Positions 17,428 through 34,333 of a DNA stretch of 35,149 nucleotides are shown here, in pieces. The position numbers were made by a program, and so were the translations under genes. This DNA is from a virus. The DNA lies in IMG/VR virus record IMGVR_UViG_3300038552_000116, positions 1 through 35,149 of that record. One strand, given 5' to 3'. Under the pieces are notes generated by a model that was not told where the DNA came from, searched no databases, and saw nothing but the letters and a program-made list of their open reading frames with translations. Positions within the stretch are counted from its first letter, which is position 1, and every line of letters starts with the position of its first letter.

Positions 17428-17899
17428 CACCAATCGGGCCTATGGCACGTCGAGCGGCAAACATGTGCCGATCGTGCGCGAACTCGCCCAAAGCATCGGT
17501 GCGAAAGACGTGCTCGATTACGGATCGGGCAAGGGCTTGCTAAAAGAAGGCATCGGCGAGGGGTTGACCGTTCGCGAATACGATCCCGCGATCGACGGCA
17601 AGGAGACGCCGCCCGAGCCGTGCGACTTGGTGATCTGCACCGATGTCTTGGAGCACATCGAGCCCGAATGTCTCGATGACGTGCTGAGCGACCTCGCGCG
17701 CGTTACCCGCAAGCTCGGCTTCTTCACCATCGCCACGCGCGCGGCCATGAAAACCCTGGCGGATGGACGCAACGCGCATCTGATTCAAGAGCCGGGTAAC
17801 TGGTGGCTCGCGCGACTCGGCAAGCATTTCAGGCTGAGCAGCTTCGTCGAAACCATCAAAGAAGAAATCTGGGTGATCGTGCGCCCGAAGGCGGCATGA
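17381..17899 (+). CDS. Class I SAM-dependent methyltransferase
   Basis: A 172-residue protein. Motif I is VLDYGSGKG (44-52), the acidic strand-2 residue lies in EYDPA, and CDLVICTDVLEHIEP (81-95) is the post-motif; GRNAHLIQEPGNWW is a substrate-side feature shared by phage proteins of this type. It lies between two glycosyltransferases with overlapping ends, which suggests a joint pathway, such as methylation of a sugar nucleotide or of the glycan being made. Substrate unknown. It overlaps the previous gene by 47 bases and the next by four. Confidence 0.78.
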   Translation: MLISEGYRKLNRELHNTNRAYGTSSGKHVPIVRELAQSIGAKDVLDYGSGKGLLKEGIGEGLTVREYDPAIDGKETPPEPCDLVICTDVLEHIEPECLDDVLSDLARVTRKLGFFTIATRAAMKTLADGRNAHLIQEPGNWWLARLGKHFRLSSFVETIKEEIWVIVRPKAA

Positions 17900-18570
17900 T
17901 GTTGCGCATCTTCATCGGCTACGATCCGCGCCAACCGATCGCGTTCACGGTACTGACGCAAAGCATTTTGTCGCGTTCCTCGGCACCGGTGGCGATCACG
18001 CCGTTGGTGATCGAGCAATTGGAATTCTCGCGACAGGGCTTGACGCCGTTTACCTTCACGCGCTTTTTGGTGCCGTTCCTTTGCGACTATCAGGGTTGGG
18101 CGCTGTTCCTCGACATCGATATGTTGGTGTGCGAGGACATCGCCAAACTCTTCGCGCTCGCCGACGATCGCTATGCCGTGATGGTGTCGAAAAACCCGGT
18201 CAAGTTCGAACGCGCCTCGGCCATGCTGTTCAACTGTTCCAAGTGCCGCGTGCTCACGCCGGCTTACGTGGAAACGGCGAAGGGCCTGCACACCATCGAT
18301 TGGCTCGCCCCGGAGTTGATTGGCGACCTGCCGCGCGCGTGGAATCATCTGGTCGGTTACGATGCGCCCGATCCCGATGCCAAGCTCGTTCACTACACGC
18401 AAGGCGTGCCGGCGTTCGAGGAAACGCGCGATTGCGAACACGCCAAGGCGTGGCTCGACATGGCCGGCTTTGCCATGTCTTATGAACCGTGGGCGAAGCT
18501 TATGGGTCCATCGGTACACGCCACCGTCATCGACGGCAAGCCGATGCCGAAATACAAGGCGCGCGCATGA
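17896..18570 (+). CDS. Glycosyltransferase, GT8-like with DxD
   Basis: A 224-residue protein from an ATG overlapping the previous TGA. It begins MMLRIFIGYDPRQPIAFTVL, a nucleotide-sugar fold. FTFTRFLVP and FLDIDMLV give the DxD motif (Asp73, Asp75) that binds metal and the sugar nucleotide, and KLVHYTQGVPAFEE near the C-terminus is a conserved His-bearing motif of such phage enzymes. With the TPR-GT and the methyltransferase it forms a three-gene modification unit inside the structural operon. Acceptor unknown: virion protein, host LPS or something else. Confidence 0.75.
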   Translation: MMLRIFIGYDPRQPIAFTVLTQSILSRSSAPVAITPLVIEQLEFSRQGLTPFTFTRFLVPFLCDYQGWALFLDIDMLVCEDIAKLFALADDRYAVMVSKNPVKFERASAMLFNCSKCRVLTPAYVETAKGLHTIDWLAPELIGDLPRAWNHLVGYDAPDPDAKLVHYTQGVPAFEETRDCEHAKAWLDMAGFAMSYEPWAKLMGPSVHATVIDGKPMPKYKARA

Positions 18571-18788
18571 GACGCCGGCAAGTGTTTGCCAAAGCCGCCG
18601 CCATTCCCATCCCATCGCCGCCGAAGCTCCTAACCCCATCGCATCACAAGATGGAGGCAATGCAATTCAAGAACGCAGCCGTTGAAAAGGGCGTTTGCCC
18701 GCATTGTAAAAAGTACATCGGCCGTGGCGTCTATACGCATTGGCGCGGTTGCCGCAATACCGTGACGACAAATGGCGACATCGGGTAG
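18567..18788 (+). CDS. Small zinc-finger-like protein
   Basis: A 73-residue protein from an ATG overlapping the previous TGA. The C-terminal part, VCPHCKKYIGRGVYTHWRGC, has Cys-x2-Cys followed by His-x3-Cys, able to bind one zinc ion. The N-terminal part is short, Pro-rich and basic. It overlaps the gp4-like gene by 17 bases. It could be a DNA- or protein-binding adaptor. No known family assigned. Confidence 0.55.
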   Translation: MRRRQVFAKAAAIPIPSPPKLLTPSHHKMEAMQFKNAAVEKGVCPHCKKYIGRGVYTHWRGCRNTVTTNGDIG

Positions 18789-19695
18789 CTATAACTTTAG
18801 CGTCTCCCGAAACGATATTTGCTATGCCTCGTTGCGCGTCGTGGGCGCGCTTGCGTCCGGCGAAACGCCGGAGGCGTCCGAACTCACCGAGGCGATTCAA
18901 GCGCTCAACATGATGGTAAAAAGCTGGCAAGGTAGCGGCTTGGAAGTGTGGGCGGCGAAACGCGCGACGTTGTTTCTGCAACTCAACCAAAGCGAATACG
19001 CCCTTGGCCCAAGCGGCGATCACGCCACGCACAGCTACGTGGAAACGGCGATCCGCGTGGCCGGGATCGCCACCGATACCACGATCGAAGTGGACTCGAC
19101 CACGGGCATGACGGTCGCCGATAACGTCGGCATCGTGCTCGATAGCGGTTCGATTCACTGGACGACGATCGCCACGATTCCCGACGCCGATACCATCACC
19201 ATCGCGACCGGGCTGCCGTCCGGTGTGGCGGTGGACAAAGCCGTGTACGCCTATACGAGCAAAATTCCGCGCCCGGTGCGCATTATCCAAGCCTTCACGC
19301 GCAACACCAGCGATCAGGACTATACGGTCTACCCCTGGCATCGCGACGAACATTGGTCGATGTATGACAAGACCTTGATTTCGCCGCCGACGCGCTATTT
19401 CTACGAGGCGCACATTCCGAACGGCACGCTCTACACCAACTATCGGCCGCTCGATGTCACCGAAACGCTCGAATTGGTCTACCACCGCCCGTTTGAGGAT
19501 TTCGACGCCGCCGGTGATGAGCCGGACTTTCCGCAAGAGTGGTTCGAAGCGCTCAAGTACGGCTTGGCGCTGCGCTTGGCGCCGGAGTACGGGCGCATGA
19601 GCCAAGACCTGGTGATGTTGGCCGAGGCGTCGAAGGCGAACGCCGAGGCCGCCTACCGCGATCAACCGCGCGCAGTGATTCCGACGGCTTTCTAA
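18772..19695 (+). CDS. Head-to-tail adaptor, P22 gp4-like with an inserted domain
   Basis: A 307-residue protein. Residues 1-50 (YASLRVVGALASGETPEASE, then LTEAIQALNMMVKSWQ) and the C-terminal part (FEALKYGLALRLAPEYGRMS) match P22-type gp4 adaptors. Gp4 alone is about 166 residues, so the middle, about residues 80-190, is an extra beta-rich domain (ATDTTIEVDSTTGMTVADNV). It should bind the portal ring after packaging and carry the tail. Its stop overlaps the next start. Confidence 0.8.
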   Translation: MATSGSYNFSVSRNDICYASLRVVGALASGETPEASELTEAIQALNMMVKSWQGSGLEVWAAKRATLFLQLNQSEYALGPSGDHATHSYVETAIRVAGIATDTTIEVDSTTGMTVADNVGIVLDSGSIHWTTIATIPDADTITIATGLPSGVAVDKAVYAYTSKIPRPVRIIQAFTRNTSDQDYTVYPWHRDEHWSMYDKTLISPPTRYFYEAHIPNGTLYTNYRPLDVTETLELVYHRPFEDFDAAGDEPDFPQEWFEALKYGLALRLAPEYGRMSQDLVMLAEASKANAEAAYRDQPRAVIPTAF

Positions 19696-20258
19696 TGAGT
19701 ACGGCACGCGTAAATCCTCCGAGCGAATCGGAAGTTCTGGCCGCCGGCAATCGGCTCATTGTCCGTTTCCCGCTAATCCGCTTTCTCGATACCAACGGTG
19801 ACGGCACCGGCACCAAAAACGCGATTGGAAACTATTCGGGCGCGGCTACACCTTTTTACATCGCGCCGCCCGCCGATCAGGTTTACAGCGTCACGGAACT
19901 GCTTATTCAGCTTTCCGACAATGGCGCGTTCGGGCAAAGCGTATGGGGTAGCATGGCGTCGGCGCTGACCAATGGGCTTTTGATCCGCGCCAAACGCAAT
20001 ACCACGGTAGTTTTGGATATCCTTGATGGTATTCCGATCAAAACCAACGACCAACTTTCGCATTTAACCTCGCGCGTGACGCTTTTAACTTGGTCAGGCT
20101 CAACCAACACCTTGCAGGCGAGTTTTACCACGGCGGAATTCGGCACCCCGCTCTATCTCAACGGTGCCTTGGACGAATCACTAGAAATCGTGTGCAACGA
20201 CGATTTTAGCGGTCTCATCGATCAAACCTTTGTAGTGCATGGTTACGTCCTTTCCTGA
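19695..20258 (+). CDS. Structural protein candidate A with a VNPP N-terminal motif
   Basis: A 187-residue beta-rich protein. It starts MSTARVNPPSESEVLAAG, closely matching the start of the next protein (MSNAQVNPPQIDELIAAG), after which the two differ. The C-terminal part (DESLEIVCNDDFSGLIDQTF) is typical of beta-sandwich virion proteins. Both have 187 residues. The shared start may be a docking motif for the same partner on the virion, with different exposed domains. The start is the ATG overlapping the gp4-like stop. Confidence 0.55.
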   Translation: MSTARVNPPSESEVLAAGNRLIVRFPLIRFLDTNGDGTGTKNAIGNYSGAATPFYIAPPADQVYSVTELLIQLSDNGAFGQSVWGSMASALTNGLLIRAKRNTTVVLDILDGIPIKTNDQLSHLTSRVTLLTWSGSTNTLQASFTTAEFGTPLYLNGALDESLEIVCNDDFSGLIDQTFVVHGYVLS

Positions 20259-20261
20259 GAT

Positions 20262-20825
20262 ATGAGTAACGCGCAAGTCAACCCGCCACAAATAGACGAA
20301 CTCATTGCCGCCGGGCGCGATACCGACGACTTAACGCGTTCGCCGCCTGCGCTCGATGTCATTCACAGCCGCATACACCGCGCGCACTGCTTTAGCTTTT
20401 CGCCGATCGTCGATATCGCCGGTGTCGATGAAGTGCGTTATTTGGGCATCTGCGGGGAGTTTCCCATTCATGTGAACGGCTACAACTTCACCGCGACCGC
20501 CGATCGCTGGTTGGTGGAACTCTACGAGCAACCGACAGTCTCGGCGAACGGCACGCCCGCAAGCTATCTCAATCGCAATCGCGCGCGCGAGACGATCATC
20601 CCGACGTTTCAACTTTTTGGATCACCCACGATTAGCGATTTGGGCTTGCGCCTGGAATCGCTCGCGGTGTTTCCGAGTGGTAACGGCAGCACGCCGGCTG
20701 TCCAATGGCCGCACGAATGGGTTTTGAAATCCTATACCACATACGCCATGCGTATCGCCAAGCTTCAAGCCGGCTCGCAAACACTCTACGGAACCTTTCT
20801 CTGGTACGAACAGCGATTTGGTTAG
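20262..20825 (+). CDS. Structural protein candidate B with a VNPP N-terminal motif
   Basis: A 187-residue protein sharing the N-terminal motif of the preceding one and of equal length. The body includes VDEVRYLGICGEFPIHVNGY and then TADRWLVELYEQPTVSANGT; it looks like a compact beta-structured virion domain. It starts three bases after the previous stop and is followed by the lysis genes. Likely a head or tail surface protein; no enzyme motif is seen. Confidence 0.55.
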   Translation: MSNAQVNPPQIDELIAAGRDTDDLTRSPPALDVIHSRIHRAHCFSFSPIVDIAGVDEVRYLGICGEFPIHVNGYNFTATADRWLVELYEQPTVSANGTPASYLNRNRARETIIPTFQLFGSPTISDLGLRLESLAVFPSGNGSTPAVQWPHEWVLKSYTTYAMRIAKLQAGSQTLYGTFLWYEQRFG

Positions 20826-20843
20826 ATCGCGAAGGAAGAACTC

Positions 20844-21137
20844 ATGAATGGCGCGATTGTCCAGCTTATCAACGAACTGGTGCCGCTCACGATCATCGTT
20901 GTAGTCCCGGTCATCATCGAATGGCTCAAACGCCTAATACCGAAGGTGCCGAAGGTCTGGATGCCCATCGCCGCGCCGATGATCGGCATCGTCGGCGCTT
21001 TCGCGCTCAATTTGGTCGGGCTGTTGCCCGGCGACGGCACCAATACAACCGTGGTCGGCGCCATCACCGGCGGTCTCGGCGTGTTCCTGCGCGAGTTGAT
21101 CGATCAGTCGCGCAAGGTGTTCATTACTGCCAAGTAA
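20844..21137 (+). CDS. Holin-like membrane protein
   Basis: A 97-residue protein with hydrophobic segments at about 8-27 (LINELVPLTIIVVVPVIIEW) and 42-62 (AAPMIGIVGAFALNLVGL), a weaker third at 68-84 and a charged tail. A GGAAG precedes the ATG. It is followed by a small lipoprotein gene, the usual arrangement of holin and spanin-like genes. It would form the hole in the inner membrane at lysis. The class is not certain, and no endolysin is next to it. Confidence 0.6.
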   Translation: MNGAIVQLINELVPLTIIVVVPVIIEWLKRLIPKVPKVWMPIAAPMIGIVGAFALNLVGLLPGDGTNTTVVGAITGGLGVFLRELIDQSRKVFITAK

Positions 21138-21146
21138 GGAGGCTTT

Positions 21147-21554
21147 ATGTTTGAACGGCAAGCGAGGGTATATGCCCTGTTCGCCTTGTGGGCGCTCGTG
21201 TTGTGCGCCTGCGCGACGACACCCAAGACCACGGAAGAACGGTTGTACTACGCCGATGCGTTGATCCGCGCCGCGCGCGACACGGCGAGCAATTTGCTCG
21301 ATCGAGGACAGCTTAGCTCGAAGGATGCGCGCCAAGTGCAAACGTACGCGGATAACGCGAAGTGCGCCGTGGAAAGCGGTAAGTACGCGCTCGGCAAAAT
21401 CCCGGTGCAACCGACCTGCGACTTGGCCGCCTTCGGCAAATATCTGCCGGACATCACCAAGCCGCCCAAGACCGCCGAGGGATGGTTGGCGCTGACCACA
21501 CGCGTTCTGACCGATGCCGAAGAGTATCTTAACAGCAAGAAGAGGGCGCCATGA
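21147..21554 (+). CDS. Small lipoprotein of the lysis region
   Basis: A 135-residue protein with a signal peptide: basic residues (MFERQAR), a hydrophobic core (YALFALWALVL) and a lipobox LCAC, whose second Cys would be lipidated. The mature part is helical, with two further Cys residues. A strong GGAGG precedes the ATG. Its place after the holin suggests an outer-membrane spanin-like or lysis-timing role, but at 135 residues it is longer than most o-spanins, and it has no clear inner-membrane partner. Confidence 0.6.
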   Translation: MFERQARVYALFALWALVLCACATTPKTTEERLYYADALIRAARDTASNLLDRGQLSSKDARQVQTYADNAKCAVESGKYALGKIPVQPTCDLAAFGKYLPDITKPPKTAEGWLALTTRVLTDAEEYLNSKKRAP

Positions 21555-30867: not shown

Positions 30868-30892
30868 GGTTCGAATCCCACCCTCTCCGCCA
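30868..30892 (+). other. Phage attachment site core: tRNA-Ser 3' end
   Basis: GGTTCGAATCCCACC followed by CTCTCCGCCA equals the T-loop, the 3' T-stem, the acceptor strand CCTCTCC, the discriminator G and CCA of a tRNA-Ser. The 5' T-stem bases just upstream (GAA) do not pair, and no tRNA body precedes it, so only the 3' end is present. This is what attP of a phage integrating into tRNA-Ser should look like: integration restores the gene. The integrase is 1.9 kb downstream on the minus strand. Confidence 0.85.
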
Positions 30893-30983
30893 AATACCCA
30901 AAAATGCTGCTTTTCGGTTTCTTTTATTATCAGTTAGTTATGTGATGGTCTTTATAACCCTTCTCTGATACGGCTAACCATGC

Positions 30984-31139
30984 TTAAGCACGTTTGAGCA
31001 TGGTTTTGCCCCATTTTTGCCCCATGATCCCACCGTATTTTGCGCACCGCGCTACGATCTTGACAGATTTCCGAAGTGCTCCATCCAATACCTTCTGTTC
31101 GTTTTCGGTCAGGTTGCGCCTGTCTCGTTCGTTGTTCAT
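30984..31139 (-). CDS. 51-residue basic protein of the small-gene block
   Basis: A small protein, MNNERDRRNLTENEQKVLDG followed by a basic helix (ALRKSVKIVARCAKYGG). The ATG at 31139 has ACGGAG eight bases upstream. A larger frame in the same stretch (30952-31164) is open but without such a start. It is the last minus-strand gene before attP. Lys-rich; function unknown. It may be a cassette gene, since a GTTATGT box lies at 30937-30943, beyond its stop. Confidence 0.5.
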   Translation of the reverse strand: MNNERDRRNLTENEQKVLDGALRKSVKIVARCAKYGGIMGQKWGKTMLKRA

Positions 31140-31179: not shown

Positions 31180-31228
31180 TCATAACTGGGCAATATCGCC
31201 GCACCAGCCGTATACTCAACTGTTATGT
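31180..31228. repeat. Box-bounded spacer D, weak attC-like site
   Basis: TCATAAC (31180-31186) and GTTATGT (31222-31228) form inverted end boxes 49 bp from end to end. The inner part has only weak pairing. The stop codon (TAA) of the 57-residue gene lies in the second box. Listed because it repeats the box arrangement of sites A to C. Confidence 0.35.
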
Positions 31229-31396
31229 TTCAGTCTCTGAATATGGCGGATCGTATTGCGCTTCAGCAACTCGGACCACATCCTTATCTTCGTTTCGTGC
31301 TATTACCTTGGCTTCATCAAGCGTAACCGCGCTTACCTCGACCCAAGAACAAACCTCTTTCACAACCTTCACATATACCCGTGTACTCGCGCCCAT
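31223..31396 (-). CDS. 57-residue hypothetical protein
   Basis: MGASTRVYVKVVKEVCSWVE then VSAVTLDEAKVIARNE and a tail AQYDPPYSETET. The strand-strand-helix layout (VYVKVVKEV, WVEVSAVTLDEAKVIA) is like small DpnD/PcfM-type domains. The ATG at 31396 has GGAGG five bases upstream, one of the best sites in this region, and the stop TAA lies in an ACATAAC box. Function unknown. Confidence 0.6.
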   Translation of the reverse strand: MGASTRVYVKVVKEVCSWVEVSAVTLDEAKVIARNEDKDVVRVAEAQYDPPYSETET

Positions 31397-31412
31397 TCAT
31401 TCCTCCAATGAA

Positions 31413-31475
31413 ACATAACAACCGCTTCGAGTCCGACGCGCCTAGTCGGCGCGCGGCTCAAGCGGGCCGTTATGT
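31413..31475 (+). repeat. 63-bp attC-like hairpin (site C)
   Basis: The ends are perfect inverted boxes, ACATAAC (31413-31419) and GTTATGT (31469-31475). Inside, after an unpaired spacer (AA against GCC), CCGCTT, GAG, CCG and CGCGCC each have exact partners, with a loop TAGTC. The 5' arm has extra bases C, T and A; the C and A sit where integron attC sites carry their two extrahelical bases, in the plus orientation. The stop codon of the 31470-31730 gene lies in one box. No T tract follows, so it is not a normal terminator. Confidence 0.65.
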
Positions 31476-31730
31476 GTCACATTTAGCCGGTTCGTTGCCG
31501 TGAGTTTCAGCGTTTCGTATATACCGAAGTGCTGTCTCATGCCGGGTTTCATTAGGAAACTTCCTAGCCACACCATAAAGCAGTTCATAGTATTTGGCTT
31601 GCAGTTCTTTTATCTGTGCTCCTACTTCATCCAACAAGTCTTGTTCGGTATCCGCATGTCCGGTAGCAAAACCTAGATCAAGCGCCCACATAACAAGGCG
31701 CTCGTTAGGTTGTGTCGCAGTATCGTTCAT
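31470..31730 (-). CDS. Small hypothetical protein in a box-bounded unit
   Basis: An 86-residue protein from the ATG at 31730, with ACGGAGATTGAAC immediately upstream. A second in-frame ATG (31691) lies in an ACATAAC/GTTATGT box; starting there the protein has 73 residues and fills the unit exactly, with its stop TAA in the other box (31469-31475). The N-terminal 13 residues would then come from the spacer. The core is helical (DTEQDLLDEVGAQIKELQAK, YYELLYGVARKF). No family recognised. Confidence 0.6.
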   Translation of the reverse strand: MNDTATQPNERLVMWALDLGFATGHADTEQDLLDEVGAQIKELQAKYYELLYGVARKFPNETRHETALRYIRNAETHGNEPAKCDT

Positions 31731-31763
31731 GTTCAATCTCCGTCGGTTAAGGCGGCGTTATGG
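31688..31763. repeat. Box-bounded spacer B, attC-like 3' half
   Basis: ACATAAC (31688-31694) and GTTATGG (31757-31763) bound 76 bp. Its right half, CTCCGTCGGTTAAGGCGGCG and the box, almost repeats the right half of site A. The left half pairs poorly. On the minus strand the repeated part supplies a ribosome site for the 31730 gene, so two functions overlap here. Confidence 0.45.
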
Positions 31764-31970
31764 CAACAACCATGCGTCATCTGTTTGTTCGCCACAAGCG
31801 ATTGCCAATTCGGCTTCGATGGCACGAGAAGCAAAAGAATCGTCGCCATGCTTTGCGCGTTTCTTAACCTTCCCGTTTCCGCCGTGCTTGGCGTTAATAT
31901 GCTGTTGGCAGTCATTCGGTTGCCCGAATGGCTTTCTGCATCGCGAGCATTGAAAAGGTTTTGTTGCCAT
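31758..31970 (-). CDS. Small C2H2-type zinc-finger protein
   Basis: A 70-residue protein with CSRCRKPFGQPNDCQQHINA then KH: Cys-x2-Cys-x3-Phe...His-x4-His, the spacing of a single C2H2 zinc finger, rare but known in phages. The C-terminal part is a charged helix. The ATG lies within the CCATAAC/GTTATGG box at 31967-31973, and its TAA stop lies in the next box (31757-31763), so the gene fills the unit from box to box. Another frame (31733-32023) overlaps it but lacks a motif. Confidence 0.65.
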   Translation of the reverse strand: MATKPFQCSRCRKPFGQPNDCQQHINAKHGGNGKVKKRAKHGDDSFASRAIEAELAIACGEQTDDAWLLP

Positions 31971-32050
31971 AACAATTCACTCGTGCCGACGCCGGTTACG
32001 CCGCGCCACTCCGGTCGGTTCAATCTCCGTCGGTTAAAACGGCGTTAGCT
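31967..32050. repeat. Box-bounded spacer A, attC-like site
   Basis: CCATAAC (31967-31973) and GTTAGCT (32044-32050) bound 84 bp. In the plus orientation the left side reads TAACAATTCACTCGTGCCGA and the right side ends GGTTAAAACGGCGTTAGC, both like parts of canonical attC sites. CCGACG pairs with CGTCGG and CCGG with CCGG, but the pairing is not continuous. The zinc-finger gene starts in its first box. Confidence 0.5.
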
Positions 32051-32268
32051 GGCAAATCCCGGTACAGCGTTCCGCATCCCGCCTTACAGCAACGGTTATC
32101 CGCGCCAGGCTGATACCCCGAGCATCCTTCGGTAAGTTCCCACCAGCCTTTATCGTGTTTACAACAGTATTCGCACACTTGGGCGTGGTTGTGGCCATAC
32201 CTGCGCCATCCGGTATCGTTGCACTTCGTGCAGCTAACGATGCCTTGACTCGCTTTCTCATCGCTCAT
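32020..32268 (-). CDS. Small Cys-rich protein, possible zinc ribbon
   Basis: An 82-residue protein from the ATG at 32268, with GGGG upstream. It has several Cys pairs: SCTKCNDTGW, QVCEYCCKH and CCKAGCGTLY. The CxxCxxTG and CxxCC arrangement suggests one or two zinc-binding knuckles, like DnaJ-type or recombination-associated ribbons. It ends within the repeated part of spacer A (LPANAVLTDGD). Function unknown. Confidence 0.6.
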   Translation of the reverse strand: MSDEKASQGIVSCTKCNDTGWRRYGHNHAQVCEYCCKHDKGWWELTEGCSGYQPGADNRCCKAGCGTLYRDLPANAVLTDGD

Positions 32269-32270
32269 CG

Positions 32271-32540
32271 TTACCCCAGCCTCTTGATGCAATCGTTACA
32301 AATCCATTCGCCGGCCTCTTCGGGATGCAAGTTATCCGGCAGCGTCATGTTACCGCAAAAGTCGCACTTGTCCGGTGGGCCGCCGCGCAGTGCGATAATC
32401 AATTCTCGAACCTCCGCGTTGGCGCGCCATCGAGCTAAGCGTATGTCCCGCAGGCACCCTTTCTGCCCCTCGGACGGATAAGCACAAGGGCGGTCGCGGT
32501 CATTGCCACCGCAAGCGGGGCACGCCTTGTCATTCGCCAT
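32271..32540 (-). CDS. Small zinc-binding protein with two CxxC pairs
   Basis: An 89-residue protein: MANDKACPACGGNDRDRPC, then KCDFCGNMTLPDNLHPEEAG and CNDCIKRLG. The second half resembles a treble-clef-like zinc site with Cys-x2-Cys...Cys-x2-Cys. The ATG overlaps the end of the previous gene by 11 bases, and the stop lies two bases before the next start. Possible nucleic-acid binding. Confidence 0.6.
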   Translation of the reverse strand: MANDKACPACGGNDRDRPCAYPSEGQKGCLRDIRLARWRANAEVRELIIALRGGPPDKCDFCGNMTLPDNLHPEEAGEWICNDCIKRLG

Positions 32541-32790: not shown

Positions 32791-34041
32791 CTACATTATC
32801 CCTTCATCATTAAACATCGAATGAAACTTTTGCCCGGTGGACCGCCCGGCCGCGTCCGCGTAGTCCTTCATAAAGCGGCCGTAGGTGCGGCGGATCATGC
32901 CGACATCGACATGGCCCATTTGCTCGGCAATCCACTCTTCCGGTTCGCCGAACGACAGGCACATCGATGCGAACGTATGCCGTAGCTGGTAGGGGCGGCG
33001 ATAATCGATCTCGGCACGGCGCAAGATCGCCTCCCAATAACCAAGCCGAAACTCTTGATCATCGCGCCAAGGCGTACCCTTGCGCGGGTGCAGGAATACG
33101 AAGCGCAGTTTACCGTGCGCGCCGCAATCAACCGGCGCTTGCATGAAGGTGCGCGCCTTTTGCCGGCGCAACACGGCGAGCGCACGCGGATGCAATTGCA
33201 AGGTGCGCATGCTGCGGCTGATCGAGCGCTGCGAGCGGCGATTGGCCTTGGGCGTACCAAGCACGCCGCCTGTCATGGCGCGGCAAACGTGAACGGTGCC
33301 GCGTGTGAGATTGACCGACTCCCATGCCAGCCCGAATAACTCGCCCACGCGCAGGCCGGTGAACAACCAAAATTCAATGAAGTCTTTGATTTCGGGATCG
33401 TTAGCTGCCTTGAGAATCTTGGCGATTTCATCGAGCTTGAAGGGCCTGATTTCATCGCCCTTGGCCACGCGCTTGATTAGCTCGCTTTCGTCGGGCTTGA
33501 TGTCGCGAATGCGGTCGAGCGGATTGGTGTCGATCAAGTCTTTCTCAAGCGCATGGTTGAGCGTGCCGCGTAGCGGTATGAGATAGTTGCGGATGGTCTT
33601 AACGAAAGTGCCGGCGCTTTGCCATTGGCGAATGACGGTGCGAATGTCGATAGTGGTCAAGTCGGCAACGGCTTTCGTCGGCCATGCGGCCGTCCAGGCG
33701 TTGATCGCGGCGCGGAAACTCTTGGCGGTCGAAGGTTTTAGCGTTTGTAGTGCCATCCACTCGTGCAACAGATTCGGCACGGTTGGCGCGTTGCGTTGCA
33801 TCACCTTGATTTTGCGCGGCGACGGACTCGCCGGGAAATAGCGCTGATAGTCCTCTAGCGTGAACTTGCCGATCGCAATGGCGTTGACGATGGTTGTGCG
33901 CAGTTGCGTGGCGTACTTAATGGTTTCGTCCGTCGCCCGCACGCCGAGGCTAGGTTTACAGCGCTGGCCGTTCCAAGTGAACACGATTCGAATCGAGCCG
34001 GCGCGGACCTCGACGCCGGGTGTGCTGCTTTTCTTTCCCAC
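32791..34041 (-). CDS. int: Phage integrase, tyrosine recombinase with DUF3596-type arm domain
   Basis: 416 residues from the GTG at 34041, which has AAGGGG upstream; a TTG at 34080 is possible but lies across the operator. The N-terminal 70 residues (SIRIVFTWNGQRCKPSLGVR and YFP) fit the DUF3596 arm-binding domain; a core-binding domain follows. Catalytic residues are Arg231 (GLRVGEL), Tyr351-x2-Arg354 (YQLRHTFAS), His377 (GHVDVG) and Tyr387 (RRTYG). The first His of box II is Tyr, a known variant. It should recombine attP at 30868 with a host tRNA-Ser gene. Confidence 0.9.
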   Translation of the reverse strand: MGKKSSTPGVEVRAGSIRIVFTWNGQRCKPSLGVRATDETIKYATQLRTTIVNAIAIGKFTLEDYQRYFPASPSPRKIKVMQRNAPTVPNLLHEWMALQTLKPSTAKSFRAAINAWTAAWPTKAVADLTTIDIRTVIRQWQSAGTFVKTIRNYLIPLRGTLNHALEKDLIDTNPLDRIRDIKPDESELIKRVAKGDEIRPFKLDEIAKILKAANDPEIKDFIEFWLFTGLRVGELFGLAWESVNLTRGTVHVCRAMTGGVLGTPKANRRSQRSISRSMRTLQLHPRALAVLRRQKARTFMQAPVDCGAHGKLRFVFLHPRKGTPWRDDQEFRLGYWEAILRRAEIDYRRPYQLRHTFASMCLSFGEPEEWIAEQMGHVDVGMIRRTYGRFMKDYADAAGRSTGQKFHSMFNDEGIM

Positions 34042-34063
34042 GGTATTATCACCCCTTGGAGTA

Positions 34064-34076
34064 TTACAGTGTGTAA
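34064..34076. promoter_or_regulatory. Palindrome TTACA-GTG-TGTAA upstream of int, candidate operator
   Basis: A perfect 5+5 palindrome, extending to ATTACA/TGTAAT, located 23 bases upstream of the integrase GTG and in the gap after the excisionase-like gene. It matches the elements at 2614, 5618 and 6461. Confidence 0.6.
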
Positions 34077-34105
34077 TCAAATCCTATACGGTGGGATCAA
34101 GTCGG

Positions 34106-34333
34106 TCAAGTGAACGGAAAGACTTCCTCGCGAAAATATTGCACGATGGCGTCATAGTCGAGCAGGATGCGGCCGCGCGTTTGCTTCTGTAAATAGTGTT
34201 TATTTTTCAGTAGCTTACCTCGCCTTATCAGGGCGCGCACGGCATGATCGCTAATGCCCGTGTCCAACTCGAATTGTCGGAGCGTGCAAATACGCCGTGT
34301 ATTGGCGTCCATACGCCGTGTATTGGCGTCCAT
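34106..34333 (-). CDS. Excisionase-like DNA-binding protein
   Basis: A 75-residue protein with CTLRQFELDTGISDHAVRAL and then IRRGKLLKNKHYLQK, the pattern of small winged-helix/MerR-like phage excisionases, which bend DNA in att sites. It lies between the Bet gene and int on the same strand. The N-terminus is MDANTRR repeated twice, due to a 21-bp tandem duplication, so either of two ATGs (34333 or 34312) may be used. The gene is four bases from the Bet stop. Confidence 0.65.
   Translation of the reverse strand: MDANTRRMDANTRRICTLRQFELDTGISDHAVRALIRRGKLLKNKHYLQKQTRGRILLDYDAIVQYFREEVFPFT
34290..34331 (-). repeat. 21-bp tandem duplication at the excisionase start
   Basis: Two identical 21-bp units (34290-34310 and 34311-34331), each with ATACGCCGTGTATTGGCGTC, encode MDANTRR twice. 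The unit itself contains a start codon. Identity of the copies suggests a recent event. Confidence 0.9.

Follow-up and report, generated by a model that had tools for sequence, protein, structure and literature searches.

The window analysed here (35,149 bases) is a linear virus record from IMG/VR. In our reading it derives from a temperate P22-like podophage in which a CALIN, a cluster of integron cassettes with no integron integrase, occupies the interval from the phage integrase gene to attP. This CALIN has four cassettes and one site (B) that a host integron integrase (IntI) could recombine; we put the probability of this reading at about 0.83. The window encodes a P22-like head set composed of terminase, portal, head protein, head closure protein Hc3 and DNA ejection functions, together with a match to Cox-like excisionases and a Bet/RecT-like annealing protein. 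The phage integrase gene (32791–34080, minus strand) specifies a tyrosine recombinase with Arm-DNA-bind_2 and Phage_integrase domains and is not IntI. A 25-nt match to the 3′ end of a tRNA-Ser gene (30868–30892, plus strand) constitutes the attP-like site, which is situated ∼330 bp from the array and ∼520 bp from the hairpin at 31413–31475. The hairpin sits amid small minus-strand genes; a preliminary description of this DNA had placed it between small genes near attP. The tRNA-Ser end is found in several gammaproteobacteria, and the portal protein has no more than two weak matches in the Methylocaldum family. Two further repeats were seen in this part of the window: a near-palindrome AACCATGCTTAAGCACGTTTGAGCATGGTT followed by TGCCCCATTTTTGCCCCAT at 30977–31030, beside the attP-like site, which perhaps provides arm-type or excisionase binding sites, and a tandem duplication ATACGCCGTGTATTGGCGTCC at 34300–34333, at the start of the excisionase-like gene, which is possibly an operator or binding-site repeat.

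A second record, IMGVR_UViG_3300038549_000053, contains the same region including site B, with 2 mismatches in 8,356 bases. Because this record reaches beyond the window, the window is a genome fragment. The overhang runs ∼14 kb past the right end of the window and its nearest 4.9 kb are unmatched in the window, so the phage genome must be larger than either record. As there is only one such near-identical record, neither gain or loss of a cassette nor an empty site was seen. The best match to the integron integrase model TIGR02249 in both records scores 12.6 to 15.4 bits against a cut-off of 265. A complete integron is defined by intI and attI, and intI is absent from either record; mobility of the array would therefore need the IntI of a host.

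The hairpin at 31413–31475 (plus strand) is a genuine integron attC site. Its end boxes, R′′ (ACATAAC, 31413–31419) and R′ (GTTATGT, 31469–31475), are complementary at 7/7 positions, and each departs by one base from RYYYAAC/GTTRRRY; the same two boxes are also present in genuine integron arrays that we examined. The spacer pairs AA against GCC and the five-base loop is TAGTC. In all of these points the preliminary description was accurate. It had also assigned two extrahelical bases to the 5′ arm, which is correct as to the arm but not the number, as there are three bulges (C31428, T31432, and A31436). Their placement does resemble that of known attC sites, as had been claimed: a single folding script gives bulges C15/A22 for the aadA1 attC and C15, T19, and A23 for site B, and the C15/T19/A23 pattern is found in genuine attC sites of Methylocaldum and other gammaproteobacterial integrons. 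On the bottom strand, the G, A, and T bulges are confined to one arm, with the spacer AA/GCC. The predicted recombinogenic bottom strand is the minus strand of the window, and the predicted cut falls between G31469 and T31470. Folded as single-stranded DNA, the hairpin reaches −27.2 kcal/mol (z −6.9), and 0 of 200 shuffles folded as well.

In order to score the site, we built two covariance models from integron attC sites, which are distinct from the model of IntegronFinder and include B in neither training set. Model R1 rests on 13 attC sites, for which the structure was assigned manually; three-bulge sites lost their central bulged base and loops were trimmed, so site B is penalised, if anything. 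Model R2 comprises 102 R1 hits from integron and integron-like loci. An initial covariance alignment that mixed two- and three-bulge sites was discarded. Site B scores 52.9 bits with R1 (E 7.5e-12) and 64.4 bits with R2 (E 3.4e-14); the E-values are rough because the calibration was short, but the bit scores are nonetheless far apart. It is the top model match of the window on either strand, with 5.7 bits on the minus strand versus 64.4 on the plus strand, and its R1 score would place it 12th to 13th among the 102 genuine attC hits. The maximum for other phage loci is 15.6 bits (100 loci, 1.06 Mb; one of these loci, L081, comes from elsewhere in the second record). Two counter-indications had been named in the preliminary description. 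The first, lack of a significant attC model match, is contradicted by the scores of B; the second, recurrence of the hairpin as a fixed intergenic structure in unrelated phages, was not found in the related phage loci scanned. A strict attC filter returned site B as the sole match in the window and no match in dinucleotide shuffles of the window totalling 4.2 Mb over the two strands. Applied to 22 integron loci, this filter picked out 24 attC candidates oriented as intI predicts and 0 oriented the other way, and thus also reads attC orientation. A merely accidental likeness to attC, with the hairpin acting as a terminator, processing signal or other common intergenic stem, is highly improbable: the hairpin is intergenic, and attC sites are thought to hold weak terminators (according to work cited in PMC9892861), but neither a T run nor a terminator call is found at the hairpin, and the 64-bit score with its strand preference, the one-sided bulges, and the empty shuffles all argue against this explanation.

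Searches for the origin of the site gave no Rfam family match to the hairpin at gathering scores, no DNA relatives of the hairpin region in phages, and only chance-level matches between the hairpin and plasmids. As a candidate route to a donor lineage, a degenerate pattern of the 5′ arm of B was tried and matched six gammaproteobacterial loci, including a close attC in Methylocaldum sp. 14B; we name no donor because other attC sites are equally close to B. Methylocaldum sp. 14B has two features of separate interest. Its IntI frame (L020/L048, 85330–86520) holds one TGA and adjoins an array with many high-scoring attC sites. Its contig C5 (L050, 8724–8785) carries a long, near-perfect attC-like hairpin (GGCTAAC..GTTAGCC, −31 to −34 kcal/mol), and IntI is partially matched ∼2.5 kb from this hairpin on C5.

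Once a cassette is circular, its R′′ box is paired with its own left edge. Across 63 genuine integron cassettes, R′′ mirrors the left edge perfectly in 49 and the linear R′ in 10; the perfect match extends to four more bases beyond the box in 16 cases for the left edge versus 1 for the linear R′. This mirror rule finds cassettes whose attC stem has decayed. A scan for mirrored GTTA...TAAC pairs of 8 nt or more, separated by 100–700 nt, identified four units in the whole window, at 31222–31419 (11 nt), 31469–31694 (8 nt), 31757–31973 (13 nt), and 32044–32238 (8 nt), and these four form one unbroken chain with attC-sized gaps between them. Among 300 shuffles a chain of two arose once and a longer one never; chains do not exceed 1 in 1.29 Mb of other phages and reach up to 5 in genuine arrays. 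A weight matrix for the ten bases that follow R′′, trained on 91 attC sites, places the arms of C, D, B, and E ahead of all others among the 158 TAAC boxes on both strands, and all four are on the plus strand. The mirrored chain and the top-ranking arms together define an array of four cassettes from G31222/T31223 to approximately G32270/T32271. The preliminary description, which named this one hairpin, had overlooked the array.

All four cassettes are assigned to the plus strand. Cassette 1 (31223–31469, 247 bp) contains ORF1 together with attC B; its G/TT edges are at 31222/31223 and 31469/31470, and its left edge, GTTATGTTTCA, mirrors the R′′ context over 11 nt. Cassette 2 (31470–31757, 288 bp) carries ORF2 and attC C. 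Cassette 3 (31758–32044, 287 bp) contains ORF3 together with attC D, and here the mirroring between left edge and R′′ context spans 13 nt. Cassette 4 (32045–32270, 226 bp, with a less certain right edge) carries ORF4 and attC E. A box pair at 31180–31228 (A) was considered as a further attC and rejected as its arm does not score, and 31222 is therefore taken as the edge of the array. The adjoining phage gene (32271–32552, minus strand, 93 aa) has its TAA stop codon within the right edge box GGGTAAC, and the position of the array is consistent with insertion at this stop codon (..GGG TAA/C..).

A CALIN is defined by at least two attC sites without intI. The canonical stem is kept by B only, and sites C, D, and E (all on the plus strand) are backed by mirrored boxes and 5′ arms rather than by the model, which assigns 14.5 bits to C, 8.4 bits to D, and nothing meaningful to E. 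Site C (31688–31763), which overlaps the start of ORF2, is degenerate and retains R′′ ACATAAC-AA and R′ GGC-GTTATGG with loss of the stem. Site D (31967–32050) is partly degenerate, with the R′′ arm CCATAAC-AA-TTCACTC..GCCGAC kept and R′ GTTAGCT, and site E (32232–32276) is degenerate and short, with R′′ AGCTAAC and R′ GTTACCC. The shared 3′ half of C and D is a 30-nt direct repeat, 93% alike (31731–31760 and 32018–32047, plus strand), that pairs poorly with the 5′ halves of these sites. With boxes and 5′ arms kept and proper stems lost, C, D, and E are probably weak or dead.

The four cassette genes are on the minus strand. ORF1 (31226–31396, 57 aa) has the Shine-Dalgarno-like sequence GGAGG and ends in a TAA (31223–31225) inside the left box; no relatives turned up in searches of phages, plasmids, and 369 gammaproteobacteria. 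ORF2 (31470–31727, 85 aa; P0001 without the first Met) likewise has a Shine-Dalgarno-like sequence and a TAA stop inside its left box, and has relatives in phage MW202713, cyanophage S-CRM01, and IMG/VR contigs, with no attC sites found nearby. A GTTATG inside ORF2 was rejected as its start, as a relative aligns further upstream. ORF3 (31758–31970, 70 aa; P0002) gives a weak C2H2 zinc-finger match, starts in the R′′ box, stops with TAA inside the left box, and has a 58% relative in a 103-kb virus contig. ORF4 (32020–32268, 82 aa; P0003) is cysteine-rich, overruns the cassette edge by ∼8 codons, and has a 54% relative in Rhodococcus phage Weasels2. These phage and virus relatives make the strand certain for ORF2, ORF3, and ORF4; since no attC was found with them, the three may be ordinary phage genes.

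The last point also speaks for another account, in which B is a single stray attC gained with one cassette (31223–31469) and the other boxes are coincidences in a region of small genes. B alone scores as an attC, the relatives of ORF2–4 occur in phages without attC, and the relative of ORF3 also ends in ..WLLP-TAAC with no attC. Such coincidence would nevertheless have to produce four mirrored units in one chain, found nowhere else in the window and never in 300 shuffles, and would have to equip those units with the best four R′′ arms of 158. We regard the stray-site account as unlikely.

A cassette gene usually, although not obligatorily, has the same direction as its attC. All four ORFs in the window are antiparallel to the attC sites, with 0/4 in the usual parallel direction; the preliminary description, silent on gene direction, had missed this layout. 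When cassettes of bacterial integrons are judged by their longest ORF, 7 of 65 clear cases are antiparallel (11 of 74 with unclear cases included), and the comparison with 4/4 in the window gives a Fisher p of 4e-4. The bottom strand of the array is the minus strand of the window and also the sense strand of the cassette genes, and these genes, being on the minus strand and antiparallel to attC, run with the leftward phage operon.

We ran R2 over the full records of phages whose head or small proteins are related to those of the window; most of these are without attC. The published control TJE1 gave three attC sites, parallel to its genes, and the published case P12002L gave no R2 match, which means that R2 is incomplete. 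Two relatives carry arrays. MW202573 (ctTUS972), a distant head-closure relative of the window phage (38%), has five attC hits on the minus strand (MW202573.1, L235 2069–3738), one of which is weak (E 0.058). This array lies directly after the excisionase gene, and all of its annotated genes, including one for a SAM-dependent methyltransferase, are on the plus strand; judged by the longest ORF, two of its four cassettes are antiparallel and the others unclear, and one near-tied cassette was settled by the annotated methyltransferase. IMG/VR contig 3300033067_000593, with a P22-like head protein (58%), has nine attC sites at 17435–21434 (L263 6936–10935). The longest ORF is antiparallel in 7/8 of its cassettes, and the cargo includes a Mom-like DNA modification protein (phrog_1384, E 7e-32). 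Pooled, the three phages have 13 of 14 cassettes antiparallel versus 7 of 65 in bacterial integrons (p 4e-9), which is a lead with strong support rather than a survey: the two further phages came to light once the pattern was known from the window, and cassettes within a single array depend on one another. Integron integrase matches above the cut-off are absent from all three records, of which only MW202573 is annotated as complete, the others being incomplete or possibly so.

The antisense layout need not reflect selection by the phage, as pieces could have been captured from bacterial lineages rich in antisense cassettes. Antiparallel cassettes do occur in bacterial integrons (the 7 of 65 clear cases). 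Yet the genes are phage-like (the Mom-like protein, the methyltransferase, and ORF2–4 with their relatives in phages), and the layout is common to three phages with related head proteins. Capture of this kind is possible, with odds of perhaps one in four. Integron parts in phages could be accidents or could belong to phage biology, and this array bears on the choice. The phage-type cargo across the three phages comprises a methyltransferase, a Mom-like protein, and small cysteine-rich proteins; a layout in which nearly all cassette genes of the three, with such cargo, point the way the phage is read would mean that the phage retains its arrays and filters them.

In established integron biology, the substrate of IntI is the bottom strand of attC in its folded form, which is cut at G/TT (PMC3053210, PMC9892861). 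A mechanism for the phage array can be proposed on this basis, in which the minus strand of B, made single-stranded through replication or transfer, would form its hairpin, and IntI from the host would then recombine it with attI or a different attC site. Cassettes might thereby enter or leave the phage during its passage through an integron-bearing host, with IntI either moving cassette 1 to attI or inserting cassettes at B. At attI, the cassette genes would be in antisense orientation relative to Pc, the usual promoter there; in the phage, they follow the leftward gene run from the integrase. In the simplest account, the attC of every incoming cassette would face the same way, and a cassette that the phage cannot read would be lost. 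The most likely explanation of the layout is that the phage retains only cassettes that can be read from its own transcription. More tentatively, and with a chance of being correct that we set below even, a clade of P22-like temperate phages may keep swappable antisense arrays of small anti-host genes that are shuffled by a host IntI sharing the inducing SOS signal of the prophage; the attC sites would point against the phage operon, which would restrict retention to cassettes that the phage can read.

Integron parts are already documented in phages, which qualifies the statement in the preliminary description that cassettes are rarely reported there: one study describes integron parts in 21 phages, with attC sites that are functional, and IntI1 recombined five of the six phage attC sites assayed there (Qi et al., 2023; PMC9892861). 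The CALIN phages of that study include MW202573 (ctTUS972), TJE1, P12002L, and PH101 (PMC9892861), and they likewise have attC sites in a phage genome with no integron integrase. The array in the window differs from these in that 3/4 of its attC sites are degenerate. The genes of TJE1 are parallel to attC, whereas those of the window are all antiparallel, like those of MW202573. The class 1 aadA1 attC shares with B the placement of bulges and the AA spacer, and its bottom strand carries T and G; B is unlike it in having a third bulge (A in the bottom strand), which by sequence gives T-N7-G, and the attC sites most easily excised by IntI1 are T-N6-G (PMC3053210). The attC sites of chromosomal (sedentary) integrons of Gammaproteobacteria are indistinguishable from B in structure and score, and the rule that R′′ mirrors the left edge holds for both; unlike those integrons, the window array has no intI and no recognised attI, carries antisense genes, and has four short cassettes only. 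Insertion of cassettes into attG and other secondary sites, away from any integron, is also on record (Loot et al., 2024, as cited in PMC12901181). The window cassettes resemble such insertions in lacking an integron platform and in having array edges at G/TT, and differ in being four in tandem and in a phage. We found no statement on antisense arrays in the text of Qi et al. (2023; PMC9892861) or in a further search confined to open-licence papers. Clusters of attC sites in phages are thus known, and the consistently antisense layout is the new part.
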